A program made the translations under genes and the position numbers. Shown here one piece after another: positions 4,838-47,169 of a stretch of 56,366 nucleotides of DNA; the first letter of the stretch is position 1, and each line of letters begins with the position of its first letter. Location: the IMG/VR virus record IMGVR_UViG_3300017781_000011, positions 1 to 56,366 of that record. One strand, given 5' to 3'. Source of the DNA: a virus. The notes under the pieces are model-generated. The model saw only the letters and a list, made by a program, of their open reading frames with translations. It was not told where the DNA came from and did no database searches.

Positions 4838-4846
4838 ACTTTAAGT

Positions 4847-10558: not shown

Positions 10559-11281
10559 ATGAAGGCTGAAGAATTATATAAAGATAATTTAAGGGACACT
10601 CATTGGTTGGGAAAGGTTGTTGATACTGCTGACCCTTTACTTGAGGGTAGATGTAGAGTAATGGTATATGGTAAGTTTGATAAAATACCAACTGAATCTA
10701 TTCCATGGGCAACATCTTCTAATAGTAATATGATAGGAACTTACTCTACCCCAAAGTTAGGAGATATTGTTTCTGTTAAATTTGATAATGGAGACATTTA
10801 CCACCCTGAATATACTTATACAATTAACAGCAATGATAGAAATACATTTAAAACAGAAATATTAGAAGCATTAGGTGCTGAGGAAGCTGTTAAAGCACAA
10901 TCAATTGTATATGATGTTGATAATAAATTTAGAATCTATTATGAACCAAATGAAGGTTTAATAGTTTCAATGGGTGATGGAATTAAAACAGAGCCTTTTA
11001 TAAATGTAAAACAAACCGGTGAAATACATATCCACACCGATCAAGAAGGTAAGGTTGAAGTATTTACAGATGGAGACGTAGAAGTTAAAGGTAAAAAAGT
11101 TCATGTTAATAGTCCAAAGGTTGAGCTTGGTGAAATAGCACTTGAACAAGTAATTAAAGGAAATACTTTTCAAGCGTTATTTAATACACATACACACCTT
11201 GGAAATCTAGGACTTCCTACAACACCACCGACCGTACCTCTATCAGGAACAGAATTAAGTAAAATTAGTAAAACAGAATAA
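10559..11281 (+). CDS. 5: gp5-like baseplate spike with OB fold, no lysozyme domain
   Basis: A 240-residue central spike protein. Residues 15-95 form the gp5/gpV OB fold: HWLGKVVDTADPLLEGRCRV, then VMVYGKFD, SIPWATSSN and the strand GDIVSVKFDNGDIYHPEY. Residues 120-200 are a run of short beta strands (GEIHIHTDQEGKVEVFTDGD in part) that should build the triple-stranded beta helix. The C-terminus FNTHTHLGNLGLPTTPP is a tip motif common in puncturing spikes. T4 gp5 (575 residues) has an internal lysozyme domain; here it is absent. It should trimerise below the gp27-like ring. Confidence 0.75.
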   Translation: MKAEELYKDNLRDTHWLGKVVDTADPLLEGRCRVMVYGKFDKIPTESIPWATSSNSNMIGTYSTPKLGDIVSVKFDNGDIYHPEYTYTINSNDRNTFKTEILEALGAEEAVKAQSIVYDVDNKFRIYYEPNEGLIVSMGDGIKTEPFINVKQTGEIHIHTDQEGKVEVFTDGDVEVKGKKVHVNSPKVELGEIALEQVIKGNTFQALFNTHTHLGNLGLPTTPPTVPLSGTELSKISKTE

Positions 11282-11852: not shown

Positions 11853-13052
11853 ATGATAGAAAAACAAAATGCTGACTTTTTTGATAAAGATGGCAATTTC
11901 GATTGGGATGGATATGAGTCAACATGTCCAAAAGTTTTAAGAACCCCAAATCCACACATAAAAGTAGTAAGTGATAAACATAAAGTATACAGTAGAGAGC
12001 CATATGCTCAAGACATGTATAATAGGATGGTAGGCCATATTGAAGAAAATGATATTATTACTCATATTAAATATGGATCTGCGTATAAGGGTAGAGTGTT
12101 TGCAATTACTGAAGAAACCGCTAGCATAGACATTGGTTATAGACAGTTAGTTTATGTAAATCTTGCTAAAGAAGAAGGCGAATTCAAAAACATTCAACCT
12201 GGCGAAGAGGTAAGTGTAATAATTACTTCTCCGTTAAATGATGATAAAAAGCCAATAATGGGTAGTGTTAGTGAAGGAACTAAGAGAGCTACTTTCCAAG
12301 AAATGTTAGAAGCTATTGAAGATCAGAGTACTGCTTGGGTAGGAAAGGTTAAAAGAATGTTAGAAGATGCTGGTTATATGATTAGCGTTAATGGTATTGA
12401 CTGTTTTATGCCAGGTAGTTTAGCTGGTATTAATAAGCTTCATGATTTTGAAAGCGTTGTTGGTGAAGAAATATATGTTGTGCCTGTTAGTTTTTCTAAA
12501 GAAAGAAGAACAATGGTTGTTTCTCATAGAGCCTATCTTAAAACATTAATTCCAGATGCTATTGAAAATCTTAAAGAAGATTTAATGGAAGAAATAGTTG
12601 GAACTGTAACAGGCTCTGCTAAATATGGTGTTTTTTGTGAATTTTCAAGATGTTTAACTGGAATGATTCATGTAAATGATTTAGATGGAGACACTTTAGT
12701 TAGACACAAGAAAAGAGAAATTCAACCAGGTGAAGAAATTAAATTTAAGGTTAAAGATATTATTTCAAACTCTAAAATTACATTAACTCAAAGAGATGAT
12801 GTGGAAATGAATCCATGGTTAGAAATTAATAAAAAATATAAAGTACCTTCTGAGGTTGATGCTACTATAAAGACTTGTAAAGATTATGGGTTATTTGTTG
12901 AATTAGAAGCTGGTGTTGTAGGGCTATTACATGTTAGTGAAATAGGTGAAGACAAAATAAAAACATATAAGCCTAAACAAAGTATTAAGGTATTAATTAC
13001 AAAAATTGAAGAAGATACTAAAAAAATATTCTTAAAATTGCCTAAGGAATAA
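11853..13052 (+). CDS. Ribosomal protein S1-like RNA-binding protein, about four S1 domains
   Basis: A 399-residue protein made of S1-type OB folds. Domain 1 is at about residues 69-140 (GSAYKGRVFAITEETASIDI). Domain 2 is at about 150-235 and carries the S1-like FMPGSLAGI. Domain 3 is at about 245-315 (IVGTVTGSAKYGVFCEF, then GMIHVNDL). Domain 4 is at about 328-397 (YGLFVELEAGVVGLLHVSEI). No RNase or PNPase catalytic domain is attached, so this resembles bS1 rather than RNase R or PNPase. It has its own late-type promoter and sits among structural genes. A role in recruiting phage mRNAs, which lack Shine-Dalgarno, to the ribosome is inference; RNA binding is well supported. Confidence 0.8.
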   Translation: MIEKQNADFFDKDGNFDWDGYESTCPKVLRTPNPHIKVVSDKHKVYSREPYAQDMYNRMVGHIEENDIITHIKYGSAYKGRVFAITEETASIDIGYRQLVYVNLAKEEGEFKNIQPGEEVSVIITSPLNDDKKPIMGSVSEGTKRATFQEMLEAIEDQSTAWVGKVKRMLEDAGYMISVNGIDCFMPGSLAGINKLHDFESVVGEEIYVVPVSFSKERRTMVVSHRAYLKTLIPDAIENLKEDLMEEIVGTVTGSAKYGVFCEFSRCLTGMIHVNDLDGDTLVRHKKREIQPGEEIKFKVKDIISNSKITLTQRDDVEMNPWLEINKKYKVPSEVDATIKTCKDYGLFVELEAGVVGLLHVSEIGEDKIKTYKPKQSIKVLITKIEEDTKKIFLKLPKE

Positions 13053-13072
13053 GTTAGGTAATAAATAAATGT

Positions 13073-13084
13073 GATATATAAATA
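13073..13084 (+). promoter_or_regulatory. Late-promoter-like GATATATAAATA
   Basis: GATATATAAATA in the 51-base gap, 19 bases before the ATG at 13104. It matches the copy at 4847 over all 12 bases, and both are preceded by GT. Confidence 0.6.
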
Positions 13085-13103
13085 AATAATTATTTAATAT
13101 TGC

Positions 13104-14417
13104 ATGCTAACATATCAAATTACAAAACATAAAGGTAAAGAAGACATTTTACAAGACTCTCTTGTCGGAATAGAGTTTGAATTCTATTCTGACAAAGAGA
13201 TTGAAGATGTTAGAAGTGAAATTTCTACTCTATTAGGTAAAAAAATCAGATTAGAGAATAAAGCACATAGTGACTTTGTTCCAACTAAAGATGAATATAA
13301 ATTAGAACCTGATATGAGTGGAGGTAAAGGTCTTATAGAACTTATTACTGCTCCTATTTCATATAGTGTTGCAAGAAATACTATAATAAAAGTATTAGGC
13401 TGGATTCAAGAAAACGGCTATACTACTTCAAAAAGTTCAATTCACTTAAATTTAAGTTTTGATCCTAAAAAAACAGGTAGAAGTAATCTTATTTCTAAAA
13501 TGGATCCTCTTAAATTTATTTTAGGATTTAATGAGACTGAAGTCTATAAGTTATTTAGTAATAGAAAAGATAGTGTTTATGCGAAGTCTATAAAATGGAT
13601 TATGCCCAAAATTGACCATAATTATTATGAAGGTCAAAATATAAATCCACATGTGTTTCATTTTGCTGTTGAAAAATATTATGGTGTAAACTTTCAAAAA
13701 TTGCAACAAGGTTATTTAGAGTTTAGATATATTGGCGGAAAAGATTATGAAAAGAAAACAACAAATATTTTATATTTATTAGATCGCTTTGTTTTACAAA
13801 TGTGGGCAATTGCAAATCAAGAAAAATATACTGATTTAAACTTAATAGAATTAAAAAGAATTCTTAATAGGAATCACAAGTTTACTGAAATACTAAAAGA
13901 TTGGAGAAGATTAAAAGACTTTTATCCGGAAATTAATCTATATGTTGATCTAAAAGATAATGAAAAAATTATAGACATGTATTGGCCTAAAATATTAATG
14001 GAGGTATTAAGATTAATTAGCCATGGAGGTTTAGTAAAAGGAGACATAAATTATGATAGTGATTTAAGTAGAGTGCAAGTGAGAAATGGAAGTTTACCAT
14101 TTTGCTTTGAATTAAGCAATTATGATTTTGTAGATTGTGAACTTTCTGGTTCTTTAAGTTTTTGTGATATTTTTAGATGTCAAATAAAAACAGCAAGTTT
14201 AAAAAGATGTAATTTATATCAAGGTACAAGTGTTGAAGATTCTAAGGTAGAATCATGTTACACTAACCAAACATGTGAAGTTAAAAATAGCTATGTGTTT
14301 CAATGGGATTCTGTATTTAAAGGTAAAATGGTTGGAGGTATATTTAGACATGGTCAAATAAGTAAAGAGGCGGAATTTGATGGTACTGAAATAATAACAA
14401 GTAAAAAAATTAATTAA
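13104..14417 (+). CDS. Predicted amidoligase fused to pentapeptide-like beta helix
   Basis: A 437-residue protein. Residues 15-215 match the COOH-NH2 amidoligase family (glutamine-synthetase/glutamate-cysteine-ligase fold): GIEFEF at 22-27 (metal-binding glutamates), EPDMSGGKGLIELIT at 68-82, SIHLNLSF at 112-119 and YLEFRYIGG at 204-212. Such enzymes form amide or peptide bonds with ATP. Residues 335-430 contain Cys/Asp/Ser-spaced short repeats (YDFVDCELSGSLSFCDIFRC in part) that should fold as a right-handed pentapeptide-like helix. The placement between S1-like and neck genes, with a late-type promoter, suggests it acts late, perhaps on a virion or cell-wall component. The substrate is unknown. 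Confidence 0.65.
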   Translation: MLTYQITKHKGKEDILQDSLVGIEFEFYSDKEIEDVRSEISTLLGKKIRLENKAHSDFVPTKDEYKLEPDMSGGKGLIELITAPISYSVARNTIIKVLGWIQENGYTTSKSSIHLNLSFDPKKTGRSNLISKMDPLKFILGFNETEVYKLFSNRKDSVYAKSIKWIMPKIDHNYYEGQNINPHVFHFAVEKYYGVNFQKLQQGYLEFRYIGGKDYEKKTTNILYLLDRFVLQMWAIANQEKYTDLNLIELKRILNRNHKFTEILKDWRRLKDFYPEINLYVDLKDNEKIIDMYWPKILMEVLRLISHGGLVKGDINYDSDLSRVQVRNGSLPFCFELSNYDFVDCELSGSLSFCDIFRCQIKTASLKRCNLYQGTSVEDSKVESCYTNQTCEVKNSYVFQWDSVFKGKMVGGIFRHGQISKEAEFDGTEIITSKKIN

Positions 14418-14419
14418 AA

Positions 14420-15265
14420 ATGAGTGATATTAGAAGCGGCGATAATATAGATTTAAGTCAAGGTAGAGATTATGGCACAGACTGTTTAACTGAATTCTTA
14501 AATGAAATTGGTTCAGAAATAACAGGTGCATGTATGATACCTCTTAATTTGCCACAGGCTGAAATAATAAACGTTATAAAAAGAGCCGTTAAATGGTTCA
14601 GAAAAAATTACGAATATAGTCTTAGAGAAAACTATTTTCATGTACCTAATGGAGTTTTTAGTAGTCAAAGTTTTAAGACAACTAGAACTTTAAACTTTCC
14701 AAAGGAAAATGCAACATCAGGTGCTGGTGAAGTCTTTTCAATATATGGAGTGTATGACCTTGCTTCTGGTTGGAATACAGGTGGAAGTGGATTAGATTTA
14801 AGATTTGCAGGTGGAGCAGATTTTAATATTGAAAAAATGTTTTTTAGTAATTCATTTGCAGGAACGGGAGCAGCAGAATCTGCAGAAGAACTTCAATATT
14901 ATGTAATTAATCAAAGTTATTTTGATATGGCTCGTCAAATCCTAGAAAACCCTTTAAGTTTTCACTACTCACAATTAACAGGTCAACTTAAATTTATGGG
15001 AGATACTCCAAAGGGTGATGTAATTATTGAGTGTTATGAAAGCATTGAAAACTGCGCATTATATAATGATGAAATATTTTTTAGATATGTTGCAGCTAAA
15101 GTAAAACAGGCAGTTGGTGCTAAATTAGGAGTCTTTAAATTCTCTTTACCAGGTGGTGTAGAGATTGATTATGATGGCATTAAATCCATGGGAGATGAGG
15201 AAATGGAAAGAGTACTTGAAGAGATTAAAGGAGATGAAGGTGTAGATTGGATGATGCACTCATAA
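14420..15265 (+). CDS. 13: gp13-like neck protein (tentative)
   Basis: A 281-residue protein resembling T4 gp13-type neck/head-completion proteins. Residues 38-75 give the pattern IPLNLPQAEIINVIKRAVKW, then EYSLRENYFHV, matching the gp13 start (V-E-L-T-P-x-Q plus helix plus aromatic strand). Residues 225-265 give RYVAAKVKQAVGAKLGVFKF and SLPGGVEIDYDGI, like the gp13 helix plus L-P-G-G loop. A Gly/Asn-rich insertion lies between, at about 95-150. The C-terminus is acidic. The neck seals the filled head before tail joining. It starts two bases after the amidoligase stop. Confidence 0.5.
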   Translation: MSDIRSGDNIDLSQGRDYGTDCLTEFLNEIGSEITGACMIPLNLPQAEIINVIKRAVKWFRKNYEYSLRENYFHVPNGVFSSQSFKTTRTLNFPKENATSGAGEVFSIYGVYDLASGWNTGGSGLDLRFAGGADFNIEKMFFSNSFAGTGAAESAEELQYYVINQSYFDMARQILENPLSFHYSQLTGQLKFMGDTPKGDVIIECYESIENCALYNDEIFFRYVAAKVKQAVGAKLGVFKFSLPGGVEIDYDGIKSMGDEEMERVLEEIKGDEGVDWMMHS

Positions 15266-15652: not shown

Positions 15653-17506
15653 ATGGCAGATTTTAAATTTTTAGATAAGGCTAGAGCTACTGCGGGAGAC
15701 ATTGTATCTGACACAAGGTCTTATTTAAGTAGAGTTTATAAGAAAGCCGGAAATTATTTTACAACGGCAAGTCCATTTTCTCAAATCCTTGAGGTAATGG
15801 CTGAAATGAATGAGATGCTCTTGTTCTATATAGAGGACTCTACTGTTGAACAGAATATTTATACAGCTCAACAGCCTGAATCAATTCATGGACTTGCAAG
15901 ACTTGCTGGGCATGACGCAACTAGAGGCTTCGCAGCAACTGGTGAAATCCGTTTTAGATGGAAGCCAGGCGCAGGTGACGATGTTGCAGGTGGTAATTTA
16001 ATTATTGATCCAAATACAGAAATAGCCTATGACAATAATGGTTTAACTTATTTTTTAAGAACAGATAAAGATGAGTTTTTATTATCAAAAAGCAGTAATG
16101 ACTGGGTTAGAGCTAATATTATACAAGGAACACTTGAGTTGCAAACTCTTACAAGTAATGGAGAAAGCATGCAAAGTTTTAACATTCAAACAAAAAGTAC
16201 TACAGATCATAATTTAGTAAAGGTTAGTGTTAATGGTGAACAATGGACTAAGTTTAATTCATTGTATGAGATGTTAGCAAGTGATAAAGGTTATTTAGTA
16301 AAGACTGGAATTAGTGGTGGTTTAGACATTTATTTTGGAACTGGTAATTTTGGAATTGTACCAGCAAATGGTGCTGCAATTGAGGTTGAATATATTAAAT
16401 GTGACGGAGCAGAAGGTAACTTAAATCAAGCTGGAGATCTTACATTTAAATGGATTGGTGAAGGTAAAGACTCAACAGGAGATACACATGATTTAAATGA
16501 ATTATTAGAGACTGAAACTTCAACGGCTCCTTTTATGGGTGCAAATCCTGAAACGCCTGAATTCACAAAGCTAATGGCGCCATTAGCAAGTAAAAGTTTT
16601 GTACTTGCAAATCCAGATGCTTATGAATATTTTTTAAGTAGATATGCACAATTCAGTTATTTAGATGCATATAATACTACAGATGATGGATATTTAGATG
16701 ATGACAATGTAATTTATATTTTTGCAATTCCAAATTTAGAGAAAAGATTATTAAGTGGAACTGACTATTTTTCAGTTGATGAAAGTGAGTTTTTCTTTGG
16801 AAAAGATGAGACTGATAGAATGCTTGGCGTAATTGAAGATAGTGGTCAGCAAATGGTCACAAGTGAAGCAATCTTTGTAGAGCCAGAAGCTGTTAAATAC
16901 AGAATGGATGTTTCTATTAGATGGTTTGAAGGATTTAAGCAACAAGATATTTTTAATGATGTTAGAGCGGCTATTTCAAAATATTTAATAAAAATTGTAC
17001 GTAGAGACAAACTACCTAAGAGTGATATTATTGCAATTATAGAAGGTATTGAAGGCGTAGATGCAGTAAATGTACAATTTGTATCGAGCATCGAAGAGCA
17101 AGCAAGAAAAGATGGATATTATACTTATAATCAAGTTACTGTAACACCATCAACTCCAGAATTAGAAGGAGCAGATGGAGATCAAAAAAGACTTGTATTT
17201 TTTAAGAGAACTGAAGAAACTAAGAAAGTAATATTGGATAATCCTGAATTATTAGTACCAGTAACTGGCGAACAGGCTATAAAAGATTGGTATAATAAAA
17301 TAGGACTTGATAAATATGGGGATATTATTTTAGATAAACAAGAAGTAGCAGTATTTAGAGGAGGATGGGAAGATAGAGATGGTGAACTAGTAAAAGATGA
17401 GCCAGCAATTGGAGAAATGGCTTCATTATCAGTTTACTTTGATAACCCTCCAGTGCCAAGAACGATTTATAGTAGAGTTCAAGCAGGAAATAGAAAAGCA
17501 AGATAA
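15653..17506 (+). CDS. 6: gp6-like baseplate wedge protein
   Basis: A 617-residue member of the gp6/J baseplate family that forms the iris-like wedge ring. The N-terminus has the family pattern: helix, then ASPFSQILEVMAEMNEMLLF (residues 39-58), an EDSTVEQNIYTAQQPESIHG stretch (in part) and LARLAGHDATRGFAATGEI. The C-terminal third carries the J-like dimer domain with VSIRWFEGFKQQDIFNDVRAAI and IIAIIEGIEGVDAVNVQFVS in pieces. The length is close to T4 gp6 (660). It follows gp25 by 11 bases and overlaps the next start by one base. Confidence 0.75.
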   Translation: MADFKFLDKARATAGDIVSDTRSYLSRVYKKAGNYFTTASPFSQILEVMAEMNEMLLFYIEDSTVEQNIYTAQQPESIHGLARLAGHDATRGFAATGEIRFRWKPGAGDDVAGGNLIIDPNTEIAYDNNGLTYFLRTDKDEFLLSKSSNDWVRANIIQGTLELQTLTSNGESMQSFNIQTKSTTDHNLVKVSVNGEQWTKFNSLYEMLASDKGYLVKTGISGGLDIYFGTGNFGIVPANGAAIEVEYIKCDGAEGNLNQAGDLTFKWIGEGKDSTGDTHDLNELLETETSTAPFMGANPETPEFTKLMAPLASKSFVLANPDAYEYFLSRYAQFSYLDAYNTTDDGYLDDDNVIYIFAIPNLEKRLLSGTDYFSVDESEFFFGKDETDRMLGVIEDSGQQMVTSEAIFVEPEAVKYRMDVSIRWFEGFKQQDIFNDVRAAISKYLIKIVRRDKLPKSDIIAIIEGIEGVDAVNVQFVSSIEEQARKDGYYTYNQVTVTPSTPELEGADGDQKRLVFFKRTEETKKVILDNPELLVPVTGEQAIKDWYNKIGLDKYGDIILDKQEVAVFRGGWEDRDGELVKDEPAIGEMASLSVYFDNPPVPRTIYSRVQAGNRKAR

Positions 17507-45330: not shown

Positions 45331-47169
45331 ATGGCATTACAAGATTTAAGAACATATTATGAGTCAGTTGAAAAAGAGGATTTTAATAATCTTTTAGCAC
45401 AGAAATGTTTAGTTACTGAAAAGATTCAAGCAAGTAGCCTACATGCGAGAAGAGAAGACAGACTCTTGCAGTTTTATAAATCAGGTAATAAGCAGCCACT
45501 TAATAAAATAGATAGAACAATAGTTTCTTACTATGAAAAAGGTATAGGCCACTTTAACGCATTATTAGATGAGACAATTCAACAAATGCCAAGTGATTGG
45601 AAATTTGGATTTGATTATATGGTTAGCGAAAAAACAGTAGACATTGAATATGATACACTTCCAAAAAATAGTCTTATACTGACACATATTCAAGTGTTAA
45701 ATGAAGATAGAACTCAGATTAAAAAAGTAATTAGAGATCCTAGAATTTTAGAAAAATGGGCAAACCTTTTAGAAGTTCAATCTCCTGAAGTTGTTTTTGA
45801 AGGCACATTATCAGACTATCAAAAAGAAAAACTAGTTAATATATTAAGTTTACAAGGAGAACAGGCAAAGATAGAACTACAAGACTTTGGTTTTTCTTAT
45901 AGAGCATTTACAACATTTAATGAGTCTATACATAAGTCAATGTTAAATAATGATATTCATAAAGACATTGATGGTTTAGTTGTAAGTTTCGTAGAAGGCA
46001 AATCATTAAAGAACTTTAAACTACAGAGTCCATTAAAAGAAATTAAAGAACAAGAAGAAAGAAAGAGTTCAGATGCATATCAAATTACAGTAGTAAAACT
46101 TATTGAATATTTTAATGCATTTGATTTTAGTGAAATACAACTTGAAAGTAAAGAAGTTGATGAGAGATATTTAGAATTAATGACAGCGGGTTTTAATTCA
46201 TTTATAAAAGACAATGGAGCAAGTTTTATTGGTATGAATTTTGATAGTGCAGAGTTTGCAAATAATGAAGAGTTTGATTTAAACCCAAAAATGATAACAA
46301 ATCAAGAAACTATTAGACTTGTTAATGAATCAAGAGAAGTTGCAGAATTATTAAAAATTACATTAGGTACTTTTAGAAAGAAAAGACAGAAAGAAAATGG
46401 AGTTTTAGCAGGAGATACATTTAATAGTCTAAATAGTATTATAGAAAAGATTGAAGCAAGAATTTACGAAAAAGTAGAGGAAGACGGTGTAATGGATTTT
46501 AAAACTTTTAAAATTAACGATACACTTAAAGGACAAACAAATCCAATTAACGAAGGTTTAAAAGTAAACCATCCTGAAAGAGGAGCTAAAGAAGTTAATA
46601 TGTTTGTTGGTAGGTTTCAGCCATTTACATTAGGACATGTTAAAGTTGTTGAACATTTACATAAACAAAATGGACTTCCAACTGTTATATTTTTAGTTAA
46701 AGCTAAAACAAAAAAGAAAGAAGACAGTTTTAAAAGACCATTTGATGAAACGATGCAGGTAAATATGATAAAACACGTGATGAAGGAATATCCTATTGAG
46801 ACAGTGTACGTTATAGATACTGCAGCAATTGACAAAATGTTTAATGCTATGAGACCTAAGTATGAACCTGTATTATGGGGAACAGGTAGTGATAGAATGA
46901 AAACATATGGCTATCAAGTTAATAACCCAAAATATAGAGGAGAATTAGGAGTTGAAGATAGCTTCAGATTAGAAGAAATTCCAAGGACAGACGATAACAT
47001 TAGTGCAACAAAGGTAAGAAACGCTTTATTAGATGGAGACGAAAAGACATATAAGTCCATGACTCCAAAATCTATGCACAAAATGTATAAATTATTAAAA
47101 CAAACAATGGAAGAAAGTGTTGAACTACAAGAACAAGTTTTAACATTTTCAGAATTTAAAAGCAAATAA
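45331..47169 (+). CDS. Ligase-like domain fused to nicotinamide/cytidylyl-type nucleotidylyltransferase
   Basis: A 612-residue fusion. The N-terminal domain (1-235) has ligase-like motifs: TEKIQASSLHAR (motif I, K31, but without the usual K-x-D-G), IDGLVVSF (213-220, motif IV) and KNFKLQSP (227-234, motif V). After an INE site (407-409) comes a second enzyme: GRFQPFTLGH (427-436, the nucleotidylyltransferase T/HxGH motif) and ISATKVR (557-563, the ISSTxxR motif), as in NadM-type NMN adenylyltransferases. The C-terminus ends with a tag-like TFSEFKSK. Two linked adenylyl chemistries could serve RNA repair and NAD synthesis. The motif I lysine should be tested, as the motif is degenerate. Confidence 0.6.
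   Translation: MALQDLRTYYESVEKEDFNNLLAQKCLVTEKIQASSLHARREDRLLQFYKSGNKQPLNKIDRTIVSYYEKGIGHFNALLDETIQQMPSDWKFGFDYMVSEKTVDIEYDTLPKNSLILTHIQVLNEDRTQIKKVIRDPRILEKWANLLEVQSPEVVFEGTLSDYQKEKLVNILSLQGEQAKIELQDFGFSYRAFTTFNESIHKSMLNNDIHKDIDGLVVSFVEGKSLKNFKLQSPLKEIKEQEERKSSDAYQITVVKLIEYFNAFDFSEIQLESKEVDERYLELMTAGFNSFIKDNGASFIGMNFDSAEFANNEEFDLNPKMITNQETIRLVNESREVAELLKITLGTFRKKRQKENGVLAGDTFNSLNSIIEKIEARIYEKVEEDGVMDFKTFKINDTLKGQTNPINEGLKVNHPERGAKEVNMFVGRFQPFTLGHVKVVEHLHKQNGLPTVIFLVKAKTKKKEDSFKRPFDETMQVNMIKHVMKEYPIETVYVIDTAAIDKMFNAMRPKYEPVLWGTGSDRMKTYGYQVNNPKYRGELGVEDSFRLEEIPRTDDNISATKVRNALLDGDEKTYKSMTPKSMHKMYKLLKQTMEESVELQEQVLTFSEFKSK

Follow-up and report, generated by a model that had tools for sequence, protein, structure and literature searches.

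Amidoligases are common in phages, where annotations have named them for years; to our knowledge no role has been assigned to them. The question raised by the locus described here is what such an enzyme does among the neck and baseplate genes of a virus. In the window, by which we mean the whole 56,366-nucleotide stretch analysed (IMG/VR record IMGVR_UViG_3300017781_000011), an open reading frame present exactly as an earlier note gave it encodes a protein for which that note proposed an amidoligase fold, a pentapeptide-like helix marked by short C-terminal repeats, and a place inside the tail operon. The window protein is predicted to consist of an Amidoligase_2 domain (GS/GCS superfamily) followed by a C-terminal pentapeptide-like β-helix, and its enzyme class is well supported by profile comparison and structure prediction. 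The features of the locus are collected in Table 1.

Table 1. Features of the amidoligase locus and its neighbours (window coordinates; residue numbers refer to the amidoligase protein)
Feature	Position	Strand	Evidence or remark
Baseplate hub (gp5-like OB domain)	10559..11281	+	PF04717 E 6e-7, phrog_430 E 4.5e-12
S1-domain RNA-binding protein, upstream neighbour	11853..13052	+	PF00575 E 8.7e-23; own promoter-like element, no hairpin
Leader hairpin	13069..13105	+	5' arm contains promoter-like element and TATAAATA; 3' arm runs into AUG
Promoter-like element GTGATATATAA	13071..13081	+	overlaps TATAAATA (T4 late-promoter consensus) at 13077-13084
Amidoligase ORF	13104..14417	+	437 aa, ATG start, TAA stop
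N-terminal amidoligase (GS/GCS-type ligase) domain, residues 1-262	13104..13889	+	conservation, AF2, Foldseek, hhalign, PF12224 in relatives
Amidoligase domain motifs			GIE24FE26F, E68PD70..E79, SIH114LN116, K191YYGVN196, LE206FR208
Helical linker, ~residues 263-306	13890..14021	+	DSSP on AF2 model
C-terminal pentapeptide-repeat-like β-helix, residues ~313-426	14040..14381	+	Pentapeptide_4, PDB profile matches, periodicity, model strands
Neck / head-tail adaptor-like protein, 2 nt downstream	14420..15265	+	phrog_211 E 6.2e-14
gp25-like baseplate-wedge candidate, 118 aa	15285..15641	+	named from size, position and gene order
gp6-like baseplate wedge subunit	15653..17506	+	phrog_219 E 9.1e-31

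Taken alone, the window protein has no amidoligase match in Pfam and PHROG scans, and the case was therefore made through its relatives, using an alignment of 73 diverse sequences (relatives 28–87% identical to the window protein). PF12224 (Amidoligase_2) matches 19 of the 73 at E≤1, with a best value of 2.7e-6, and one relative, L091, reaches 22.1 bits against a gathering cut-off of 22, the window protein itself being without a direct match. Profile–profile comparison with hhalign aligns profile A4, over residues 19–256, with the Porphyromonas phage amidoligase DBA55455 (prob 94.4, E 9.2e-8), which is itself matched by PF12224 at E 3.9e-42. The alignment superposes GIEFEF on GIEIEA, EPDMSGGKGLIELITAP on VPDSSIRGRNPFELVSP, SIHLNLSF on GMHVHINA, RKDSVYAKSIK on RRNNYYCKGFS, KYYGVNF on RYRKINA and GYLEFRYIGG on GSIEFRQHGG. 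Profile A3 likewise aligns with the amidoligase AUZ94978.1 of the cultured jumbo phage Atu_ph07 (prob 98, E 1.2e-13, residues 31–240), a protein that scores over the PF12224 cut-off. The ordered motifs of Amidoligase_2, GxExE ... D(x8)E ... HxN ... ExR, are all present in the window protein, and the four motifs quoted in the earlier note, GIEFEF (residues 22–27), GLIELIT (76–82), SIHLNLSF (112–119) and YLEFRYIGG (204–212), are conserved and not chance resemblances.

The AlphaFold model of the full-length protein, computed with the 73 sequences, has a pLDDT of 89.8 and a pTM of 0.84, and that of the N-terminal domain a pLDDT of 90.2 and a pTM of 0.89. Profile searches of the PDB with full alignments (A1, then A3) returned pentapeptide proteins and chance matches, no ligases, so that a structure search was needed. 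Among the best 50 PDB matches listed by Foldseek for the N-terminal domain, 48 carry the name of a GS, a GCS or a bifunctional glutathione synthetase, the other two being a GS homologue (4hpp, rank 30) and an HMG-CoA reductase (7n7s_C, rank 49); global TM-scores to solved GS/GCS structures are modest, at ~0.45 with an rmsd of ~11 Å and ~10% identity. In a structure search of a viral library, most of the matches listed with names are amidoligases. The profile–profile E-values, the PF12224 matches and the GS/GCS structural matches together bear out the amidoligase fold, and the possibility that another fold would match better, which the earlier note had named as grounds against its reading, is settled in that reading's favour by PDB matches that are almost all GS/GCS.

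The fold is shared with Amidoligase_2 proteins of phages and bacteria (Atu_ph07 AUZ94978.1, Porphyromonas phage DBA55455, Pseudomonas phage tf), as are the ordered motifs GxExE, D..E, HxN, K/R-Y..N and ExR. In contrast to these, the window protein carries a C-terminal pentapeptide-like helix, which Pfam reports in none of the comparison amidoligases examined, and its gene lies 1–7 nt from a neck gene with no consistent GGCT/GATase partner. With the GS/GCS superfamily (GshA, GshF) it shares the fold and the type of metal-binding glutamates, whereas its ligase core is smaller (~262 aa).

Loss of the glutamates in relatives would likewise have spoken against an amidoligase; E24, E26, E79 and E206 are kept in 73/73 sequences. 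Also invariant in all 73 are G22, D70, S72, G74, N116, F119, R154, Y159, K191, Y192, G194, N196, R208, Y209, G211 and G212, and H114 is kept in 72 of 73. The invariant set thus includes the nine predicted catalytic or substrate positions (E24, E26, D70, E79, N116, K191, N196, E206 and R208). By analogy with GCS, E24, E26, D70, E79, H114 and E206 would engage Mg-ATP and R208 the substrate carboxylate. The amidoligase gene has a dN/dS of ~0.10–0.17, indicating purifying selection. By all predicted signs the enzyme would be a catalytically intact, metal- and ATP-dependent carboxylate-amine ligase, its ATP chemistry being that expected from family membership.

Relatives of the amidoligase are encoded on at least 571 IMG/VR stretches, as found by a protein-relative scan. 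Among phage records they occur in six uncultured huge-phage entries, LR756500–LR756504 and LR745206 (462–735 kb); genomes of 634, 636, 642 and 735 kb have been described as the largest complete phage genomes, in the Mahaphage clade (PMC7162821), and five of the six entries match that paper's largest complete genomes (634–735 kb) in length. The 642-kb phage genome LR756502.1 also encodes a second, divergent amidoligase-like protein (locus L204, 208756–209859, minus strand) with the motifs VSFEFEIET, TGLHINIGV and YVEFRYVGG. The relative L091 lies on a contig (JAJFLM010000187.1) binned to a deltaproteobacterial MAG and is likely to represent a phage contig or a mis-binning.

The C-terminal part of the window protein has no direct Pfam pentapeptide match of its own, and its character emerges from the family. 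Pentapeptide_4 matches 41 of the 73 aligned sequences at E≤1 (best 5.4e-6), and five-residue periodicity, scored as tandem five-residue repeats with a hydrophobic centre and a small i-2 residue, beats shuffled sequences at p≤0.01 in 64 of 73 (p=0.005 for the window protein). In the AF2 model, residues 313–426 form regular short β-strands with a pLDDT above 90; the C-terminal part finds QnrB1 as a structural match (prob 0.87), and profile searches find pentapeptide PDB chains. The short repeats reported earlier thus hold up as a pentapeptide-like helix on the strength of the family matches, the periodicity and the model strands. Periodicity, Pentapeptide_4 matches and PDB profile matches are shared with the pentapeptide-repeat proteins (MfpA, Qnr and McbG-like), from which the window helix differs in being short (~110 residues), Cys-containing and fused to an enzyme. 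The β-helix may act as a docking module.

The setting inside the tail operon was read correctly, because the neighbours are baseplate-hub, neck/adaptor and gp6-like genes. The best family match of the gp25-like candidate is weak (phrog_33571, E 0.012) and its gene order is conserved. The setting can also be sharpened. When loci of the window's clade were retrieved by the neck protein alone, a selection unbiased for the ligase, all those with enough sequence (77/77) had the amidoligase immediately upstream, the gap being 1–7 nt in 74 of the 77. Loci L298–L301, found with a distant neck protein, hold no ligase within the fetched sequence. In nine large genomes the gene order is reshuffled, but homologues of tail, neck or baseplate genes are for the most part found in the flanks fetched (20 kb per side), the linkage to neck and tail genes being weakest in W02. 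In Atu_ph07 the distant homologue AUZ94978.1 (gp196, as counted from portal gp198 and capsid gp215) lies two genes away from the portal gene and belongs to the CDS 170–215 cluster, the source of many virion proteins identified by mass spectrometry. A place in a tail operon does not by itself establish a virion substrate.

Several further observations concern the neighbouring genes. Neck proteins of the window's clade mostly have DEGVDW(M/F)xHS, or a sequence close to it, at their C-terminus, and the idea that this C-terminus is a ligase-acceptor signature, from inspection of the neighbours' C-termini, is only a lead. S1-family domains are present in all nine large relatives. Elsewhere in the window, positions 45331–47169 (plus strand) encode a 612-aa protein with a C-terminal cytidylyltransferase-like domain.

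The leader of the amidoligase gene bears on its expression, for the window's clade rather than for the distant relatives at ~30% identity. In loci of this clade, which were chosen around the amidoligase and in which same-site copies from related phages are counted, the coding strand carries 170 copies of TGATATATA and the opposite strand one. The element is carried by 50 of 60 unique amidoligase leaders, most often 28–37 nt before the gene, and by 49 of 67 leaders of the S1 gene, 36–39 nt upstream, whereas the leaders examined for the neck, gp25-like, gp6-like and 17506 genes, 256 in all, lack it. This distribution makes the element promoter-like and the amidoligase the apparent first gene of a unit that includes the neck, gp25-like, gp6-like and 17506 genes; from its placement, the element looks like a promoter. 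By itself, TATAAATA shows no excess in the window (19 observed against 16.9 expected), and the informative element is the longer, one-stranded one. Copies of a one-stranded (G/T)TGATATATAA / GATATATA element lie on the plus strand of the window at 4845, 11812, 13071, 26677, 37057, 42586, 49007, 50070 and 54017, mostly 12–56 nt before start codons, and represent a candidate promoter of the phage group.

Of the two genes preceded by the element, only the amidoligase has it as the 5' arm of a start-codon hairpin. The window hairpin folds at -9.0 kcal/mol (z -3.4). No consensus stem came out of a MAFFT alignment of the leaders analysed with RNAalifold, probably owing to variation in the lengths of stem and loop; the stem was instead assessed by folding each sequence against shuffles, with a control gene bearing the same motif, and by swapping arms. 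In up to 40 leaders of each gene, the mean z is -2.83 for the amidoligase, with 78% below -2, compared with +0.24 for the S1 gene. Amidoligase leaders fold better with their own arm (-10.1 kcal/mol) than with swapped arms (-7.2 kcal/mol), the own pairing beating the median in 43/52, whereas the control gene does not (own -3.7 vs swapped -4.2 kcal/mol); since related sequences are not independent, the arm-swap serves as support and not as a probability. The element before gene 4874 of the window forms no start-codon stem, and Rfam has no match within the window. In locus L131, upstream of 6001, a strong hairpin followed by a T run stands just before the amidoligase and looks like an intrinsic terminator rather than a leader hairpin.

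This arrangement resembles the leaders of T4 genes e, soc, 49 and I-TevI, in which a late-promoter-like element lies in the 5' strand of a start-codon stem (PMC3014915); it differs in the element itself (GTGATATATAA) and in the gene, here an amidoligase, and the likeness is one of sequence layout. In T4 gene e, early read-through transcripts are poorly translated, and late ones, begun after the 5' arm, are translated (PMC3014915). The late layout of the amidoligase leader is well supported, and this layout suggests that the amidoligase may be produced only late.

What would a late-made ligase act on? For a ligase apparently made late, in a neck–baseplate unit and without consistent partners, the best explanation is that it modifies a virion protein: a helix-docked, ATP-dependent ligase that forms amide bonds on a neck or baseplate protein, a reading to which we give about an even chance. 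The amidoligase gene would open the transcription unit common to the neck and baseplate genes, and in longer read-through transcripts the leader hairpin would shut the start codon, whereas transcripts begun at the element inside the hairpin 5' arm would escape the hairpin, as in the T4 gene e scheme. During assembly, the ligase would form an acyl phosphate on a carboxylate, either of a side chain or of a C-terminus, and link it to an amine supplied by a free amino acid or by a lysine in an adjacent subunit; the target would be a neck or baseplate protein, on which the β-helix would place the ligase. What the data show directly are the domain identity, the conserved predicted active site, the operon position, the promoter-like element and the hairpin, whereas the ATP chemistry, the late-only translation, the docking role and the virion-protein substrate are inferred.

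The absence or scarcity of partner genes bears on the alternative that the enzyme makes a small molecule, a γ-glutamyl or similar dipeptide or metabolite that a cyclotransferase breaks or recycles, the role to be expected where phage amidoligases neighbour GGCT/GATase genes. A Christensenellales phage does encode an amidoligase near a γ-glutamyl cyclotransferase gene, and a GGACT protein occurs somewhere in four of the nine huge genomes. It is never adjacent to the amidoligase, however, and has no match in W01 or G004, the large genomes that share the window's gene order, while a GATase_6 partner is found in 0/9; a stand-alone protein modifier is therefore favoured over a small-molecule pathway, which is also disfavoured by the way the amidoligase invariably accompanies a neck gene in the window's clade, and we regard the latter as improbable. 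Cell-wall enzymes are frequent in tail operons, and the ligase could be a late host-envelope or lysis enzyme whose targets are peptidoglycan stem peptides, or another envelope amine or carboxylate, to which it would add an amino acid or on which it would exchange one; it might act inside the cell at lysis time or be carried on the tail. The leader layout, which is that of the T4 lysozyme gene e, a late lysis gene (PMC3014915), fits such a role. Pfam and PHROG scans, though, give no wall-binding or export domain, and a tail-borne enzyme outside the cell would presumably lack ATP. We also know of no pentapeptide helix that serves as a wall-binding module, and consider this role unlikely.

The S1-domain gene directly upstream (gap ~45–58 nt in most loci), together with the S1-family domains in 9/9 large genomes, invites a further reading in which the two proteins take over translation by modifying the host ribosome or a phage S1-like protein, much as RimK tails ribosomal protein S6. 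The S1-family and amidoligase genes are nevertheless far apart in W02, W04 and W05, and within the window's clade each has its own promoter-like element; a leader of late type also speaks against a takeover early in infection, and this reading seems very unlikely. Within the window's clade the gene is strictly coupled to the neck gene, and conservation extends over the full length; both would suit a structural or assembly protein, the fold having been reused as a neck or baseplate scaffold with vestigial catalysis; a scaffold would have no need of predicted catalytic residues that are invariant down to ~28–30% identity, and we hold little belief in it. Among these readings, modification of a virion protein is the one we prefer.

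What is new here is the fusion to the helix, the coupling to the neck gene and the late-type leader. In those parts of the literature that our search covered, we found no description of an amidoligase that carries pentapeptide repeats or works on virions, and no phage virion with an enzymatic amide modification of this kind. The broader proposition, that huge phages use a tail-operon ligase made only late to introduce amide-linked residues or subunit cross-links into the neck or baseplate, is offered tentatively and may well prove wrong. One phage amidoligase family now has a link to virion genes and, as far as the window's clade is concerned, also to a late-expression leader, which turns the question of what phage amidoligases act on into a search for amide additions on neck and baseplate proteins. 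For this uncultured phage group the leader provides a first candidate promoter motif and a candidate switch of late translation like that of T4; if the proposed role is true, enzymatic amide bonding would join the known ways of building a virion.
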